26,058 bases of DNA, taken from the IMG/VR virus record IMGVR_UViG_3300028840_006311, positions 1-26,058 of that record. The stretch is one strand, 5' to 3'. Every line of letters begins with the position of its first letter. Positions within the stretch are counted from its first letter, which is position 1. The notes beneath the pieces were generated by a model. That model was not told the origin of the DNA, did not search any database, and saw only the letters and a list, made by a program, of their open reading frames with translations. Below are positions 7,815-19,113 of this stretch, in pieces. Source of the DNA: a virus. The translations under genes were made by a program, and so were the position numbers.

Positions 7815-8516
7815 TTATGGGTTGATATAATAAACGTCTTCACTAAGCACATATCGATTTGCATTGCGCAATCTGCCTCGTTCAACGAAATCATTTAAGT
7901 GCTGGAGTCGGGTCTTAATCTGCCTCAACGTTGCATCATTTTCTGCTGCATCAACCATGAAATATGATTTAGCTGCAAACAGTGCAATCAAATCATGAAA
8001 TTGAAGTAACTCATCGATATATTCATTGTCGCCTGTACTGATTTGAGACCAATCAATATTTTGAATTGGAATATATTCGATTCGAATAGTTGCATTGATG
8101 GTTCCGCTAAATTTAAGCAAAGTGTTCTGAAGCATAAATCTTGCTGGATAAAGAACTCCTGGAGTGATGAGTTGTTCATAAGAATAGACTGGTGTATATA
8201 CGTTTTTAACATTGCTGCTGCCATCCAACTGTACAATTCGAATAATTTGCGCTAACTGTCTTTGTGGAGAAGCAACTGAAGCGCCCATAATAGGTGATGC
8301 AACTGCAGCTAAATCTAATTCATCAACGTTAGATAATGTGTATTCTTGTGTAACTAAAAAGAAATTAGGGTCAATATCTGAAACTGCTTGCACAAACTCT
8401 TCGTAGCCAATTTCAAGCCATTGTGCAACGTCAGTATTCGATACAAAGGTAGTATCAGAATCATCAATGATTTTTCTGAAATAATCTGCTACATTTTCTG
8501 CATATTTGAGTGCCAT
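7815..8516 (-). CDS. Head-tail connector / adaptor protein
   Basis: This 233-aa protein sits between portal and nozzle, as gp11 does in T7 and gp4 in P22. The N-terminus (residues 1-45) is helical and acidic. The middle is strand-rich, with a YEQLITPGVLYPARFML segment. The C-terminal part (about 165-220) contains long helices (DELLQFHDLIALFAAKSYFM, TLRQIKTRLQHLNDFVERGR) of the kind that pack against the portal ring in connector proteins. Its ATG overlaps the portal stop codon (TAATG), so the two are translated in tandem at matched levels. Assignment is by position, size and helical pattern. Confidence 0.85.
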   Translation of the reverse strand: MALKYAENVADYFRKIIDDSDTTFVSNTDVAQWLEIGYEEFVQAVSDIDPNFFLVTQEYTLSNVDELDLAAVASPIMGASVASPQRQLAQIIRIVQLDGSSNVKNVYTPVYSYEQLITPGVLYPARFMLQNTLLKFSGTINATIRIEYIPIQNIDWSQISTGDNEYIDELLQFHDLIALFAAKSYFMVDAAENDATLRQIKTRLQHLNDFVERGRLRNANRYVLSEDVYYINP

Positions 8517-10444
8517 TATCTTATACTCCCGCCATTAAAACTAAGTGCTTCTGCAGGCGCAGCATCAACCTGTCTTGATTCACTAAATGACTGTGCAGCT
8601 CCTTGCTCCATTGCTTGGTCAACCGCGGCACCTGTTTGTTGTGCTGCCGCTAAAGGTGAATTCTGCAAGAGTACTAATTTCTTAGCTTCTGCTGCATTAG
8701 CAATATCAGACCTAGGGAAGACTTTCATACGGTCTTTCAAATTCTTTGCAACTTCATCACCACTCTCATCATTAGGAGCAGATACAGAAATTAGAATATC
8801 TCTAATATAATCCTGTCTTTCAGTTGGCAACTCATAGAATTCACGTGATTTCGTAAACTCTCCAAATACTTCACTAAACGCTTCCGTATCATCAGTTGCA
8901 AAGATTTCAATAAGCGCTCCACGCCGAACTGCATCCAGCATTTGACGAGCATGAGAAACACCTTCCATCTTCTTGGCAATGAATGCATTACCAGTTCTAG
9001 AAGCAATTTCTTCCAATGCAGTTTCTTTATCAATAAGTCCAGCCTGAAAGAGTGCAATGGCTCGAGCTTCTCTATCCTCAGCCATATCATGGAATAGTGA
9101 ACCAGCTTCAATATGAATTTCAGGGTCTTCGACAATATTGGTAGAATTGACTTCATAGAAAATAACTTTGCCTTTATTATCTAACATACGGTATAGTTTT
9201 GATTCTGTGTAATATTCTTTCATCAACACCAATACAGTCACTGCTAAATCTTGGCATGCTCTTTCTAGTGAGTCTTGTGTAATTTGTAACGCTGAAGTAT
9301 CCTGTTGCGATAGCTCTTGAATTGCTTTACCTGAAACGATACCAACTGCACGTTTACCTAAAGTAGTAGAGTGAATACCAGCAACATCCATAATTTCAGC
9401 TTGTAGTTGACGAATATTGTCAATGACATAACCAGGGATTGAAGCTGCTGGAATTTGTTGAGGAGTGCCGCCTGAAGGACTATAGAAAATCTTTTCACCC
9501 GCTCTTTTAGTAATTGCATTAGGTGCAACGCCGGCGCTTTTAGGAATCAACCATTTCGGATTAGCCATTAGTTCAACATTCTGCATAATCTGACCACGAG
9601 CACGGTTGTAATAACTTTGTAGCTCAATAAGTGGAGTCATCATCGATAATCCCCACAGTCGATTAGGAATATCAGTATATTTCATATGCTGAAATGGTAG
9701 AATTTTACTAGGCATTTCACCTTCAAAAATGTATTTATCCCCTAATAAGAAACCATATTTGCCATTATTAAGATATACTTCATACACGTCAACTTTACCA
9801 GGCGGCACATAATTCATTGAGTATTGACGGTTGCCTTGCTGCGTATATGCACTATCACCATCAGATGTATATTTTTCTATCTCTTCTTCATGTTCAGGAT
9901 AAGCTTCAATCAAATCATATTTATCATAGAATTTTCTGATTGCAACCCAACGAGCATCTTTTAGATTTGCTAAACCTGCTTCATAGAAAATATCAAACGG
10001 AGAAATTGCTTCTGTACAAATCTTATCTTTATCTGGGTCGTAGTATGATAACATACCAGCATTACCAAATAATAAGATATATTCAATGCATTTAGAAATT
10101 ACATCTTTTATTTTTTCAGTTTTCCAATAGTAGCGTAATGCAGCTTCTGAAGCTTGTGCTTTGGTAATATCTTCTTTCGAAGGTGATGCCGGCATAACTG
10201 TGATACCGGGATATTGCGCGGACATTTTGCTAACAACCGTTCGATAAATAGGTAACAATTGGTTAATAGTAGGGATATTAGTAGTTTCTCTAGAATTAAC
10301 ATAAGTCTGTAGATTGCGGTCATATGTGATTTGCTGTTGACCCTGAATAAAGCGTTGATTTAAATCCCATGCTTTTTCTTCTACAGATTTAGCAGTACGT
10401 GCATCAGCAATTTTTGCTTTGACATCTTTTAGTTCTAACGGCAT
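8516..10444 (-). CDS. Portal protein
   Basis: This 642-aa protein forms the dodecameric channel at the capsid vertex through which DNA is packaged and ejected. Length and layout match podophage portals. The N-terminal helical part begins around PTINQLLPIYRTVVSKMSAQYP. A wing region follows (ECIEYILLFGNAG-like helix, then the SPFDIFYEAG segment). A characteristic stem/crown sequence comes next (WGLSMMTPLIELQSYYNRAR, ELMANPKWLIP, GVAPNAI). The C-terminal half is helical, with GKAIQELSQQDTSALQ, as seen in portal clip and crown regions. The tail is Ala/Gln-rich. It overlaps the adaptor gene by one base and follows the glycine-zipper gene, which carries its Shine-Dalgarno (TAGGTT) inside its last codons. 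Confidence 0.95.
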   Translation of the reverse strand: MPLELKDVKAKIADARTAKSVEEKAWDLNQRFIQGQQQITYDRNLQTYVNSRETTNIPTINQLLPIYRTVVSKMSAQYPGITVMPASPSKEDITKAQASEAALRYYWKTEKIKDVISKCIEYILLFGNAGMLSYYDPDKDKICTEAISPFDIFYEAGLANLKDARWVAIRKFYDKYDLIEAYPEHEEEIEKYTSDGDSAYTQQGNRQYSMNYVPPGKVDVYEVYLNNGKYGFLLGDKYIFEGEMPSKILPFQHMKYTDIPNRLWGLSMMTPLIELQSYYNRARGQIMQNVELMANPKWLIPKSAGVAPNAITKRAGEKIFYSPSGGTPQQIPAASIPGYVIDNIRQLQAEIMDVAGIHSTTLGKRAVGIVSGKAIQELSQQDTSALQITQDSLERACQDLAVTVLVLMKEYYTESKLYRMLDNKGKVIFYEVNSTNIVEDPEIHIEAGSLFHDMAEDREARAIALFQAGLIDKETALEEIASRTGNAFIAKKMEGVSHARQMLDAVRRGALIEIFATDDTEAFSEVFGEFTKSREFYELPTERQDYIRDILISVSAPNDESGDEVAKNLKDRMKVFPRSDIANAAEAKKLVLLQNSPLAAAQQTGAAVDQAMEQGAAQSFSESRQVDAAPAEALSFNGGSIR

Positions 10445-10896: not shown

Positions 10897-10933
10897 AAAA
10901 AAGAAGTGGGGGCTGACAAAAGCCAGCCCCCAC
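10897..10933 (-). terminator. Rho-independent terminator downstream of major capsid gene
   Basis: On the minus strand a perfect 10-bp GC-rich stem (GTGGGGGCTG paired with CAGCCCCCAC, loop of 8) is followed at once by TTCTTTTTTA. It lies 27 bases after the capsid stop and before the start of the glycine-zipper gene. It would reduce transcription of portal and tail genes relative to capsid protein, a common dosage arrangement in phages. Confidence 0.9.
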
Positions 10934-10959: not shown

Positions 10960-12216
10960 TTAGAACTGAATACCAGTCAACACGGCATTTGCATTCGGGC
11001 GAGTGCAAACTGTGTTGTAGTACAAGCGGTAGTAACCTTCGAACTTGTCTTGGTTAGCTACACGACTCATAATGGCACCGTCTAAGTCAGCAAAACCAGG
11101 AGCTTCTAGTTCACATAGTTTCCATTCTGACGGGCAGAGGAAGAAGAATGAACCTTTGAAGCAATCCTTGGACGTACGCATCGGTACACCACCATACGCT
11201 AGACCGGTGAAACCACCATCGCCACCAGAAGCCTTTTCTGTCTGCGTGTAAAGATTACCAGCAGAAGTACCGACTAATAGTGATGTGTACTCTTGTCTCA
11301 TCAGCGGGCTCATGAGAATGAGTTCAGGTGCTTTATCCGAATCTTCTAGGATACGGTCCATTGCAGCCTGGATACGGTCGAGCGAGAGCGCGGCGTAGCC
11401 AGTTGCAGCTGTTTCCGAAACCTTGAGGTGATTGGACTGCAATGCAGATGCACCAGTTGCTGTGGTACGGTCAACACCGAAGTGCGAAGGAGCAGCCAAG
11501 TTTGTGGTAATACCAGCAGGCTCTTGGTCCCATGCACCAGCAACACCAGCAACGATAGTCGAGTTCGAAGTTGCAACTACAGCAAATGCAACATCACCAT
11601 CAATCGAAGCTAAACCGGTTAGGTTAATTGCAGCGTTGAAAGTAATTGTATCTTCTGTAACACCATTGACTTGCTGGTTGGTTGCAACCGAAGCATAAGT
11701 GTCTAGACGAACGATATCAACTAAGTCAGTAGCGTTACCAACCTGTAGACCTGAAGAGCGACCACTATAATCGAATGCAGCCTGGTTAGCCTGCTCAAAG
11801 ATGTAGCCTAGCACTCTACCACCGAAGATTGCTCTCTGGTTCGCAGCGGTCTTGACGTCTTCTACGAGCTTGTTCATTTCCGCATCGATGTACGAAATGA
11901 ATGCATTAGGACCAGATTTTGCGGAAGCAATCGCCGGACCAGTGATTGCAAATCTACCATACAGGAATTTGGCATCAACTTCTAGACGCTCAAAGTCTTG
12001 CTGACCTGCAGTTGGGAGTGTACCGTCATCTGCTACGAACGCGACACCACTGTTACGGGCAACGTGTACTGGGATAACTACTCTGCGGCCGCTCCAATCG
12101 ACCGATGCTTTTTCGAATAATTCATAAACCAGAATTTCCTGGTTTAGCTGTTCAGCCAAAGGTCCAAGATAAAACTCTTTAAGGATGGCTGTGAGGGATG
12201 AAATACTTGCGGACAT
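10960..12216 (-). CDS. Major capsid protein (HK97-type)
   Basis: This 418-aa protein should form the icosahedral shell. It follows a scaffold-like gene and precedes a strong terminator, as expected for the most abundant virion protein. The N-terminal arm (residues 1-35, helical, LTAILKEFYLGPLAEQLNQE) leads into strand-rich parts with the capsid pattern of an E-loop-like and A-domain-like region (VVIPVHVARNSGVAF, then LYGRFAITGPAIASAKSG). Later segments (LILMSPLMRQEYTSLLVGTS, GLAYGGVPMRTSKDCFKGSF) resemble the end of phage capsid proteins, where a binding-site sentence near the C-terminus is common. AGGAGA stands nine bases before the ATG. Its codon use is visibly more GC-rich than its neighbours, consistent with high expression. 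Confidence 0.93.
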   Translation of the reverse strand: MSASISSLTAILKEFYLGPLAEQLNQEILVYELFEKASVDWSGRRVVIPVHVARNSGVAFVADDGTLPTAGQQDFERLEVDAKFLYGRFAITGPAIASAKSGPNAFISYIDAEMNKLVEDVKTAANQRAIFGGRVLGYIFEQANQAAFDYSGRSSGLQVGNATDLVDIVRLDTYASVATNQQVNGVTEDTITFNAAINLTGLASIDGDVAFAVVATSNSTIVAGVAGAWDQEPAGITTNLAAPSHFGVDRTTATGASALQSNHLKVSETAATGYAALSLDRIQAAMDRILEDSDKAPELILMSPLMRQEYTSLLVGTSAGNLYTQTEKASGGDGGFTGLAYGGVPMRTSKDCFKGSFFFLCPSEWKLCELEAPGFADLDGAIMSRVANQDKFEGYYRLYYNTVCTRPNANAVLTGIQF

Positions 12217-13125: not shown

Positions 13126-14727
13126 TTACTCAAAAGGTACCTTCACATAAGATTCTTCTTCAGTAATATAGCCAAAATATCCTTCTGCTTGTAGTTGCTG
13201 AATATTTTTTCCTGTTTTTCTTTCTAAAACCATTGCTTCTGATAAATTAGTTGGTGGCTCAATTTTCTTCATTGTAGTTTCTATCACCGCTTGGTCAACA
13301 CCTTGCAGTGCTAATGCAACTGCAAAAATTAAATCATCGTGTGTACCAGGAGAATGGTCAGGTCTGCCTTTATCGTTATAAACAAATGTGTTCATTTGAA
13401 ATCTAAGCCGTTCATCTGATGGCTCTAATTTACCTGAATTAATTGCTGATTGAATACTAGATAATAAAATGGGGCGTGAAGTTGCGCTGGTAGCAAAGCC
13501 TAATTTACTCGTCCAATTTTTGCTAACATTATCATATTTTTCTTGTGTGTAGATGTAGCTATATTCTTTATTGCGTAGATATTCAATTACCGCTAAACCA
13601 TATGAATTTGATTCAATTACTGCAACACAATTCCATTTATTACATTCTTCTAAAACTCTCTTGGCAAATTGTAGTGGTGTAATTCTTTCTACATAAGTTG
13701 CAACTATCTTACGAATACCACCGGTAATTTCTATCACTGCAAATGCACTGTAATCGCCTTTTGCAGAACCACTAGCAGTATCAGCTCCTAGCACATAAGA
13801 GCAATATTTTTTTGGTTGTTCATATTGTTTATAACCTTCGCTAAAAGTTGCATGCTCATAAACTTTATCAAAAAATCTATCACCTGAAGAGATAAAACAT
13901 GTGAGTGGGTCAATTGCATATTCTTGTAAGAATGTAGGCCACGAATTAGCGCACCGAACTTTTAATGTTTCTGCTGCCCAATTGAGTTGCTCATCTGAAA
14001 GTTCCCATTCTGCAGCATAGTCTAATAACTGAGCTGGAATATTGTTGGGCCTATCTGCAATTTTATAGTCTGGTTCCAATGTCCAATCAATAAATGTTTT
14101 ACCAAAACCTGACTCTTCATCTTGCCAAATTTGATGGAAGCCATTGAGACCATTGGCAGTTGTTTCAATAATAATATGAGAGTTACCAGTTGCCGTCTGA
14201 AACAAACCTGCAATCGCTCGTGTGGTATCTCTCCAAAACGCCATTTCAGATGCATGAATATTATTGTAAGTTGCACCACGATAGTTTTGAGAAGTAGCCG
14301 AGGCAATACGAATCGTACCACCATGAAAGAAAACTATTTCATTAGCTGAAGATGATTTGGTAGAAAACCGTAAAAATTGTGGTAGCTTCTCATAAAAAGT
14401 CTTATAGATACGATAAATGTTTTTTACCGCTTCATGTGTATGTGCTACTACCAATGAACGTTCATTAGCGTTGAATAAACTTTTCCAGAATAAAATTGCA
14501 GCAATAATCGTAGAACTGCCCATCTGTCGAGCTTTCAATACACATTGCCATGGATTTTCTTGAATATTGTCCCAAATAACTTTCTGTGCTGCTTTTAGTT
14601 TCAGCGGTAATACTTTACCATCACGGTCAATAATTTTGAGATAATTTTCTGCAAAATAAACAAAGTCTTGTTGGCAGCGCTGTATTTCTTCTGCAAATAA
14701 TATTTTTCTGTCTGGAACAACTGTCAT
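13126..14727 (-). CDS. terL: Terminase large subunit (packaging ATPase and nuclease)
   Basis: This 533-aa protein pumps DNA through the portal and cuts concatemers. The N-terminal ATPase half has a divergent Walker A (KARQMGSST, residues 65-73), in which the usual Lys before Ser/Thr is replaced and the upstream Lys-Ala-Arg variant is used, as in many terminase-6-type proteins. A Walker-B-like segment with the catalytic Glu follows (HASEMAFW, Glu161), then a coupling motif near ETTANG (188-193). The C-terminal RNase-H-like nuclease has acidic residues in LGADTASG (Asp316), AVIESNSYG (Glu372) and HDDLIFA (Asp464/465). Length is normal. The start is preceded by GAGG eight bases upstream. A 56-aa helix-turn-helix gene sits just upstream. 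Confidence 0.96.
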   Translation of the reverse strand: MTVVPDRKILFAEEIQRCQQDFVYFAENYLKIIDRDGKVLPLKLKAAQKVIWDNIQENPWQCVLKARQMGSSTIIAAILFWKSLFNANERSLVVAHTHEAVKNIYRIYKTFYEKLPQFLRFSTKSSSANEIVFFHGGTIRIASATSQNYRGATYNNIHASEMAFWRDTTRAIAGLFQTATGNSHIIIETTANGLNGFHQIWQDEESGFGKTFIDWTLEPDYKIADRPNNIPAQLLDYAAEWELSDEQLNWAAETLKVRCANSWPTFLQEYAIDPLTCFISSGDRFFDKVYEHATFSEGYKQYEQPKKYCSYVLGADTASGSAKGDYSAFAVIEITGGIRKIVATYVERITPLQFAKRVLEECNKWNCVAVIESNSYGLAVIEYLRNKEYSYIYTQEKYDNVSKNWTSKLGFATSATSRPILLSSIQSAINSGKLEPSDERLRFQMNTFVYNDKGRPDHSPGTHDDLIFAVALALQGVDQAVIETTMKKIEPPTNLSEAMVLERKTGKNIQQLQAEGYFGYITEEESYVKVPFE

Positions 14728-17172: not shown

Positions 17173-17236
17173 CGCTGTGGCCCGGTAACTCAAGAAAGGT
17201 AGGATATACTATCTTAGAAATTACCGGGCCACAGCG
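17173..17236. repeat. 16-bp perfect inverted repeat in intergenic gap
   Basis: CGCTGTGGCCCGGTAA at 17173-17188 and its exact reverse complement at 17221-17236 are separated by 32 bases. The stem is strong and GC-rich, but no U-run follows on the minus strand, so a simple terminator is unlikely. It is located between the 159-aa and 131-aa genes. A structured RNA, RNase processing site or protein-binding site is possible. Confidence 0.85.
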
Positions 17237-17250
17237 AGCCACAGATTTAA

Positions 17251-17730
17251 TTACTCAGTAAACGCGTCAGACTGACGTAACTGAATATGGACTGTCGCGG
17301 ATGCATCACCGCCAGAGCCATCAGAGATAGAGCGAACTGCGAGTGCTTTGCCAGGAATTAATCCTAGTGCACCTTCTGTACCACTGAGTACTGCTGTGGG
17401 TACCTGAATCAAACTACCGTTACCATCCTGTCCAAAGGAACCAGAAGCTGCGGGTAATAGTGTGCCATGGTCGACTGCACCGGTCAAAATGAGTGCTATC
17501 GATTCAAAACTACTAGAATCGCCATCAGTAACTCTACCAATTTCGATGCGGTCATTAGCAGCACCATCATTGCTTTTAATACCCCACACGTTGCATACTT
17601 CCCAGTAGCCACCAGGTAGTACTTTATAGGATACATCACCTGCGCCAGTAGAACCTGAAGGTGCCTTTAATTTAACATTAACTACATCGGTCCATACCGG
17701 TTGTTCGTCTAATTTTACGAAATTTGCCAT
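17251..17730 (-). CDS. Virion-type protein, possible decoration or stabilising protein
   Basis: This 159-aa protein is Gly/Ser/Ala-rich with several beta-strand segments (SYKVLPGGYWEVCNVWGI, ATVHIQLRQSDAF). No enzyme motif. It has its own leader: a candidate promoter (17812-17828), a 19-bp palindrome (17785-17803), and AGAGAG before the ATG. The gene is followed by a strong inverted repeat. Such dedicated control suggests high expression, which would suit an abundant virion protein such as a capsid decoration protein. Function is inference. Confidence 0.78.
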   Translation of the reverse strand: MANFVKLDEQPVWTDVVNVKLKAPSGSTGAGDVSYKVLPGGYWEVCNVWGIKSNDGAANDRIEIGRVTDGDSSSFESIALILTGAVDHGTLLPAASGSFGQDGNGSLIQVPTAVLSGTEGALGLIPGKALAVRSISDGSGGDASATVHIQLRQSDAFTE

Positions 17731-17811: not shown

Positions 17812-17828
17812 CTATTTCTATACTGGAA
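17812..17828 (-). promoter_or_regulatory. Candidate late promoter upstream of the 159-aa gene
   Basis: On the minus strand this reads TTCCAGTATAGAAATAG, matching the motif at 13104-13120 at 15 of 17 positions. On the plus strand the motif is flanked in both cases by CCT on the 5' side, one base apart. Located in the 110-base gap upstream of the 159-aa gene. No -35 box is seen. Promoter role is inference from recurrence and position. Confidence 0.45.
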
Positions 17829-17840
17829 CTACTAAAATAA

Positions 17841-18089
17841 TTATGCTGATTTGGCTTTGCCACCTTGTAGGACTCGTAACACATCATCTTCAGACATATC
17901 GGTTTTTCCTTGTTCATCTGCCATTAATTCTGAAAGTAGTTTAAGTGCTTCGATTTTAGCACGTGCATGCTGAGCACTATTACCTTCAATTTCATACATA
18001 ATGCTGAGAGCTAGACTTTGCAAATCATTCTTATTAATATCGACTTCATCTAATTCAGCAATTAACTGTTTCATCTTTTTCATATTCAT
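17841..18089 (-). CDS. Small helical protein, possible small terminase subunit
   Basis: I chose the ATG at 18089, with GGAG six bases upstream; a TTG further up would extend it by four codons. The 82-aa product is helical. An acidic start (KQLIAELDEVDINKNDLQ) is followed by a helix pair (SLALSIMYEIEG and ARAKIEALKLLSELMADEQG) and a short C-terminal helix (SEDDVLRVLQGG). The ARAKIEALKLLSEL segment reminds me of the helical part of phage small terminase subunits, but no clear helix-turn-helix is visible. It lies first after the holin-like gene and the 121-bp stem-loop element. Small terminase is a tentative reading; the gene lies about 3 kb from terL. Confidence 0.7.
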   Translation of the reverse strand: MNMKKMKQLIAELDEVDINKNDLQSLALSIMYEIEGNSAQHARAKIEALKLLSELMADEQGKTDMSEDDVLRVLQGGKAKSA

Positions 18090-18158
18090 ACATAACTCCA
18101 ACCACTCTGCTACTGAGAGCGTGTTCTAATTCTTTACTGTGGAGATTAATTATTGAGA

Positions 18159-18279
18159 CTGCTACAACATGACCCTAGTAGGTAACAGCGAAACATATAA
18201 GGAGAATTTATGATGGCATTTCTACAGTTATATGGCGAAACTGTAATTACTGTTACCTACTAGGGTCATGTTGTAGCAG
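18159..18279. repeat. 30-bp perfect inverted repeat enclosing a 17-codon reading frame
   Basis: The left arm (18159-18188, starting CTGCTACAACATGACCC) and right arm (18250-18279) are perfect reverse complements over 30 bp, separated by 61 bases. Within the interior lie AAGGAG, two ATG codons in a row and a small frame that closes in the right arm. A 7-bp inner repeat (TACAGTT/AACTGTA, around 18223-18245) would form a second hairpin. It sits in the 240-base gap between the holin-like and 82-aa genes. It could be a mobile or recombination element, a packaging or replication site, or a structured RNA. No coding gene on the minus strand is interrupted. Confidence 0.95.
18210..18263 (+). CDS. Possible 17-aa micropeptide inside the inverted repeat
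   Basis: On the plus strand, opposite to all neighbours, AAGGAG is followed at about five bases by ATGATG. The frame codes for MMAFLQLYGETVITVTY and stops at TAG 18261-18263. The last codons run into the right arm. When the arms pair in RNA, the interior with the ribosome site stays in the loop while the stop lies in the stem. Codon statistics cannot be judged at this length. It may be fortuitous; the ribosome site is the main support. Confidence 0.35.
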   Translation: MMAFLQLYGETVITVTY

Positions 18280-18291
18280 CTAATAAATAAT

Positions 18292-18327
18292 AATCTAAAC
18301 TGAGTGAATGTTCAATATTTTTAGATT
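18292..18327 (-). terminator. Weak terminator-like hairpin after the holin-like gene
   Basis: Directly after the stop at 18330 the minus strand has AATCTAAA and TTTAGATT (8-bp stem, 20-base loop), followed by ATTATTATTTATT. The stem is AU-rich, so termination would be weak. Confidence 0.4.
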
Positions 18328-18329
18328 AA

Positions 18330-18527
18330 TTATTTCTTCAGTAATTGACTTGATTTCCAAGCAGTAGCAATATCTGCTAGACCCTGCGAGCCTATATATG
18401 CTAATGCTATTGCAATCCACTGTTCACCGTCTACTTTGTCTATTAGTAATAATCCAGTAGTAGTTAACCATACTAACAGTTTTCTAGAAATAAATTTCTT
18501 AATGTTGCTGTCGATTAATTGTTTCAT
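18330..18527 (-). CDS. Holin-like small membrane protein
   Basis: I chose the ATG at 18527, with GAGGTG nine bases upstream; a GTG at 18539 would add four residues. The 65-aa product has a basic, helical N-terminus (KQLIDSNIKKFISRK), a first membrane segment (about 17-30, LLVWLTTTGLLLI), a short polar turn (DKVDGEQ) and a second segment (about 36-52, WIAIALAYIGSQGL), then a Lys-ended tail. Two membrane spans with a charged turn in a protein of this size match class II holins, which open the inner membrane at lysis. No endolysin was found in the window, so it is named holin-like by topology only. Confidence 0.75.
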   Translation of the reverse strand: MKQLIDSNIKKFISRKLLVWLTTTGLLLIDKVDGEQWIAIALAYIGSQGLADIATAWKSSQLLKK

Positions 18528-18540
18528 AGCAATGAGCACC

Positions 18541-19113
18541 TCAGTTTATTTTACTAGGTTGTTTCTGAGACCAATTAGCTTGTTGCTCACGAATTTTCTT
18601 ATCTAATTCCCATTGAGGATATTTCTGCTTCATTCTTTGAATTTGTTTTGCTTTTTTATTTCGATAATATTTATTGCGTGCAGATTTTAGTATTTTATGA
18701 TGACGTTTTTTCTGAGACTTAGACTTTTTTTGTTTTAGCCACCATTTTGAATTAATTAATTTCTGATAGTATTCATCTTTATTAGCTTCAGTTAATTGAA
18801 TACTTTTCTTTGTTTTAATTCCTGGAAGGCAATTAGCTGAAACATTCAAACAATTTTTATCTGAGATATATTTATTAAGCAATAATTGCTCTTCAATATA
18901 TGCAGCAGTTCTATTATTGCACTTTTGCAAAATTTCTAATTTATAGCTTGTAATATCTGCAGATGATTTCCAAGTGTTCTGAAATTTATAATTGTGAGTC
19001 TTTAATTTAAGGCTATCTAAATGTTCAGATAATCTACGGTTGCAGTTATTAGAAGAACCTAAATAGAATTTACCTGAAGGGATATGAGTAATTTTGTAAG
19101 TGTGACCGGTCAT
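18541..19113 (-). CDS. GIY-YIG endonuclease, free-standing homing type
   Basis: This 190-aa protein has the GIY-YIG fold in its first 80 residues. TYKITHIPSGKFYLGSS (5-21) is the GIY and YIG pair, with Thr-Tyr-Lys in place of Gly-Ile-Tyr and Tyr-Leu-Gly for YIG. Then come the Arg-bearing helix NRRLSEHL (25-32), HN (40-41) and the catalytic Glu in IEEQLLL (74/75). The C-terminal half (about 105-190) is Lys-rich with clustered basic residues, suitable for binding DNA. No Shine-Dalgarno is visible before the ATG, unlike neighbours, and the leader contains two hairpins. Such enzymes cut an intron- or element-less allele and spread by copying. It lies two to fourteen bases from the holin-like gene. 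A. T-rich base use suggests separate origin. Confidence 0.87.
   Translation of the reverse strand: MTGHTYKITHIPSGKFYLGSSNNCNRRLSEHLDSLKLKTHNYKFQNTWKSSADITSYKLEILQKCNNRTAAYIEEQLLLNKYISDKNCLNVSANCLPGIKTKKSIQLTEANKDEYYQKLINSKWWLKQKKSKSQKKRHHKILKSARNKYYRNKKAKQIQRMKQKYPQWELDKKIREQQANWSQKQPSKIN

Follow-up and report, generated by a model that had tools for sequence, protein, structure and literature searches.

The DNA analysed here (the window) is the whole of a 26,058-base phage contig, listed in IMG/VR as a linear virus record and possibly a fragment. Its genes for the portal protein (8516-10444), the major capsid protein (10960-12216) and a T4-type large terminase (13126-14727) are carried by the minus strand. 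The order on that strand is as follows: a GIY-YIG homing endonuclease gene (18541-19113), a membrane-type gene (18330-18539), the element under study (18159-18279), a gene for a helical protein of 82 aa (17841-18089), then the particle genes. The membrane-type gene codes for a hydrophobic, holin-like product (65-69 aa), homologs of which occur in more than 40 viral contigs. Of the 46 contigs in which the gene was located, most come from other phage groups, in which it directly or almost directly adjoins the following gene, and these were therefore uninformative on the junction. These dozens of viral contigs are otherwise unrelated and, in several of them, the next gene is lysozyme-like by eye.

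The first-pass annotation had placed a candidate small terminase gene 70 bases from the element, i.e. the frame starting at 18089. This identity was supported neither by protein families nor by fold search: the 82-aa protein matches nothing in PHROGs and no terminase family in Pfam, where its one hit (ADDB_N) stays below threshold at 18.1 versus 26.6 bits, and its structural model, of middling confidence (pLDDT 72.8), gave no match with E below 0.001.

Structure of the element

The element is by far the strongest inverted repeat of the window. Its two 30-nt arms, 18159-18188 and 18250-18279, are 100% complementary and 61 nt apart, exactly as the error-free 30-bp match first noticed; among the other perfect Watson-Crick stems of the 26 kb, the longest has 16 bp. 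When G-T pairs are counted the stem extends to 32 pairs. The arms (47% G+C) exceed their flanks in G+C content, and the interior (18189-18249) is at 31%. The interior had been described as a 61-base loop: the length is right, but the loop is not a plain one, since a 7-bp hairpin (TACAGTT/AACTGTA) lies inside it. A 196-nt stretch of the minus strand folded at -75 kcal/mol with a z-score of -14.1, none of 200 shuffles being equally stable; for the plus strand (141 nt), the z-score against shuffles was -11.0. The structure is real and clearly non-random, and the perfection of its arms suggests a recent origin, or palindrome repair, in this lineage. A second, weaker hairpin adjoins the main stem on the minus strand (18284-18334, AATAATTAATCTAAA / TTTAGATTATTATT). 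Alternative folds are possible there: segment 18284-18297 can pair either with 18320-18334 or with 18143-18154.

The interior contains, on the plus strand (18199-18263) and thus antisense to the flanking genes, an AAGGAG (18199-18204), an ATGATG (18210-18215) and a 17-codon frame (MMAFLQLYGETVITVTY) whose TAG stop (18261-18263) falls within the right arm; all these features were found where the first-pass annotation had put them. The window has six AGGAG-N4-9-ATG strings, against about 3.8 in shuffled sequences; five of them lead into frames of 94-418 codons and only the one at the element into a frame of 17. For these reasons the ribosome-site observation does not go beyond chance, and the site and its frame are probably fortuitous. 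No promoter candidate leading into the element was found on the plus strand; the late-promoter-like motif of the phage (see below) was found on the late strand.

The junction in relatives and the stems between other late genes

Scans with the large terminase yielded only two contigs covering the same junction, L006 and that of L065/L074, with large terminases respectively 63% and 64% identical to that of the window. (Contig L004 is of the same species, its large-terminase residues being identical at 533 of 533 positions, and stops before the element.) Both L006 and L065 have the gene pair, in the same order as in the window, and neither shares the sequence of the element. In L006, the two genes are separated by 0 bp, stop codon against start codon, with neither element nor hairpin. 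In L065, they are 138 bp apart and the gap contains a hairpin (GGTCAACC/GGTTGACC), a textbook intrinsic terminator with its U-run (AACCCCCGGG...CTGGGGGTTTTTGTTT) and a late-promoter-like motif, CCAGTATTTAATAG. The first-pass annotation had pointed to relatives that keep the gap and lack the pairing: of the two at hand, L006 lacks both and L065 has a gap with different hairpins (n = 2). The hairpin is thus dispensable in the group, as judged from the bare junction of L006.

Stems were also present at other late junctions. After the gene at 17251-17730, there is a perfect stem of 16 bp in the window, a stem of 14 bp in L065 and one of 8 bp in L006, the three sequences being unrelated; that of the window (17173-17236) is G+C-rich, has a 32-nt loop and no U-run, and lies between two late genes. 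After the capsid gene, stems are followed by a U-run in the window and in L009, and are without U-run in L006 and L008; in the window this is an intrinsic terminator (10906-10933, GTGGGGGCTG/CAGCCCCCAC then TTCTTTTTT). All three of the perfect window stems of at least 10 bp with at least four G-C pairs lie between late-strand genes, with the proviso that 10-bp stems are little more numerous than in shuffles, chance being clearly exceeded by the longer ones alone. From these junctions, U-less stems and true terminators fill the same kind of slot in this phage group.

A CCAGTAT followed by A/T-rich sequence, often AATAG, recurs ahead of several genes of the late strand: in the window at 17826 and 13118 (minus strand), in L065 at 3661, 3978, 4247 and 7130, and in L006 at 500, 945 and 6404. 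It looks like a candidate late promoter of the group. No good copy is found just after the element in the window. A resemblance within the arms (CTAGTAG, 5 of 7 positions) is common by chance and was rejected, as was a similarly commonplace match at about 18145, which we do not claim as a promoter for the 82-aa gene. One copy nearly touches the ATG of the membrane-type gene in L006 and L065, which would suggest a leaderless message.

Readings as a mobile element, a by-product, an independent RNA or a DNA site

The abutting genes of L006 resemble an empty site, and the element could be MITE-like, i.e. a non-autonomous element inserted between abutting genes with duplication of its target AATAATTAATCT. 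As in MITEs, perfect terminal-type inverted repeats surround a short interior, here with arms more G+C-rich than the flanks; AATAATTAATCT is a 12-bp direct repeat present on both sides (18323-18334 and 18143-18154, minus strand), and, when flanks of 60 bp were compared, a shared word of such length turned up in only 1 of 2000 shuffles and, across the window, at 1 of 644 places. The direct repeat does not, however, abut the arms (it is 4 bp from one and 43 bp from the other), and the likeness of its two copies is otherwise explained by the fact that both complement one AT-rich segment, 18284-18297, of the second small hairpin. Moreover, the 138-bp spacer of L065 is without the element at the same place. 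Unlike MITEs, which are present in multiple copies, the element seems to be alone. The copies elsewhere that this reading predicts, and for which a search had been advised at the outset, were found neither in the window and the contigs of L004 and L005, nor by blastn in phages and plasmids, nor with exact patterns in IMG/VR (arm 27-mer and 16-mer) and in GTDB species genomes (18-mer and 16-mer), patterns that would miss diverged copies. Every short exact arm match found elsewhere was without a partner arm and was read as chance. A mobile origin is therefore unlikely. It is possible, though on balance we doubt it, that the element is a largely or wholly functionless by-product of replication, in which template switching or palindrome correction made a long perfect repeat out of an imperfect hairpin or terminator. 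This would account for perfect arms in a sequence unique to the contig, for a slot that varies between relatives and for flanks that are AT-rich and partly repetitive. Long perfect palindromes tend to be lost, however, so that persistence of this one suggests some use, and strong stems are found at other junctions of the group too.

Two further readings take the element as a unit on its own. A plus-strand mini-gene, with an exposed ribosome site and a 17-aa peptide, agrees with the good spacing between AAGGAG and ATGATG and with their location in a weakly structured part of the plus-strand fold; a stand-alone minus-strand RNA of 121 nt agrees with a TTGAAC-17-TATTAT that ends at 18287, so that a transcript would start at about 18280, which is the foot of the stem. 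Against them, strings of the AGGAG-ATG type are expected by chance, as seen above, the promoter match is of 9 out of 12 and such matches number 22 in the window versus 27.8 in shuffles, and such an RNA would lack a terminating U-run. No tRNA or tmRNA was found and no Rfam family scored above its gathering score, rli51 remaining below it (31.4 versus 48 bits). Taken together, these two variants are very improbable, and so is the more specific proposal of a discrete structured RNA of 121 nt, started from the stem foot on the minus strand and acting alone, for example as a double-stranded decoy or regulator of host or phage ribonucleases. Very improbable too, in our view, is a pac site or another DNA-level site (protein-binding, recombination or invertible) next to a small terminase gene. 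The position of the element, about 3.4 kb upstream of the large-subunit terminase gene and beside the gene for the small helical protein, which the group conserves, would suit it. Against it stand the failure of the 82-aa protein to match any terminase in PHROGs or Pfam or any fold with E below 0.001, and the want of the site in L006 despite a large terminase 63% identical. The packaging reading had been built on a small terminase that could not be supported, and the recombination-site reading met with nothing in its favour. No recombinase or invertase was found among the window proteins scanned; a single contig, which may be a fragment, covers the site.

The element as a proposed intercistronic RNA stem

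The reading we favour, with moderate confidence, is that the element is an intercistronic RNA stem-loop of the minus-strand (late) mRNA, occupying a terminator or insulator slot and acting in RNase III-type processing or as a block to 3' exonucleases. Its main support is that U-less stems and terminators share the same type of slot in the group. The extreme folding stability (z-scores of -14.1 and -11.0) also speaks for it, as do the gene pair and order common to the window, L006 and L065, and what the L065 junction contains. Of the four readings offered by the first-pass annotation, the one that invoked RNA kept its function as the most plausible, via the minus-strand mRNA, and lost its trapped or produced plus-strand peptide, into which no plus-strand promoter candidate leads. 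On the other side, terminators and stabilisers do not usually have an apical region of 61 nt, and the L006 junction, which has neither gap nor hairpin, also argues against it.

According to this RNA stem reading, the minus strand would be transcribed through the element together with the surrounding genes, and the transcript is predicted, from the computed fold, to form a 30-32-bp rod with a 61-nt domain at its tip. The rod would stand at the junction of the membrane-type gene with the first particle gene, where the relative L065 has a true intrinsic terminator and then a late-promoter-like motif. It might be a double-stranded processing site of the RNase III type that separates the two messages, or it might block 3' exonucleases and so shield the upstream message; the polymerase may also be slowed at the stem, with partial termination. 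Since the stem has no U-run, a post-transcriptional action is the most likely.

The element is like an intrinsic (Rho-independent) terminator in being a stem-loop between two transcription units, at the place where L065 has a true terminator. Such terminators combine a G+C-rich stem with a small loop and a U-run directly after it, and the element has neither: its stem is much longer (30 bp, 47% G+C), its apical region is of 61 nt and no U-run follows on either strand, the minus-strand tail being TCTCAATAATTA (3 T in 8) and the plus-strand tail CTAATAAATAAT. The view that it is not a standard terminator was therefore correct. A double-stranded stem of more than 20 bp, as in the element, would be compatible with an RNase III processing site. 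In T7-type phages, RNase III processing stems, which are shorter and irregular, lie between late genes. By this general comparison, what is shared is a double-stranded stem lying between cistrons of a polycistronic phage message. The element differs in being longer and regular, and it belongs to a phage with a T4-type large terminase.

The role of the element is probably ordinary, though its structure is striking. If it is an RNA-level insulator, then the same junction in one small phage group holds either nothing, or a true terminator, or a very long U-less hairpin, and this natural series would lend itself to tests of how phages keep the messages of lysis-type genes apart from those of particle genes. 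A mobile element or an independent RNA would be more notable, but the present evidence is not in favour of either. The element calls less for a category of its own than for a transcript map.

A very stable hairpin near a homing endonuclease gene has a precedent in Aeromonas phage 25, where a high-stability hairpin of unsettled function lies by seg43, a seg-type homing endonuclease gene (PMC2988022); the gene near the element is likewise for a homing endonuclease, of the GIY-YIG type. Homing endonuclease genes of the T4 type also carry hairpins at their ribosome sites (PMC2988022). The element instead is 3' to both the endonuclease gene and another gene, which makes the ribosome-site mechanism inapplicable: with the endonuclease start (19113, minus strand) over 800 bp further upstream, the stem does not cover the ribosome site of that gene. 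The GIY-YIG gene itself is missing at the corresponding place in L006 and L065, and related GIY-YIG domains are found elsewhere there (L066 and L067).
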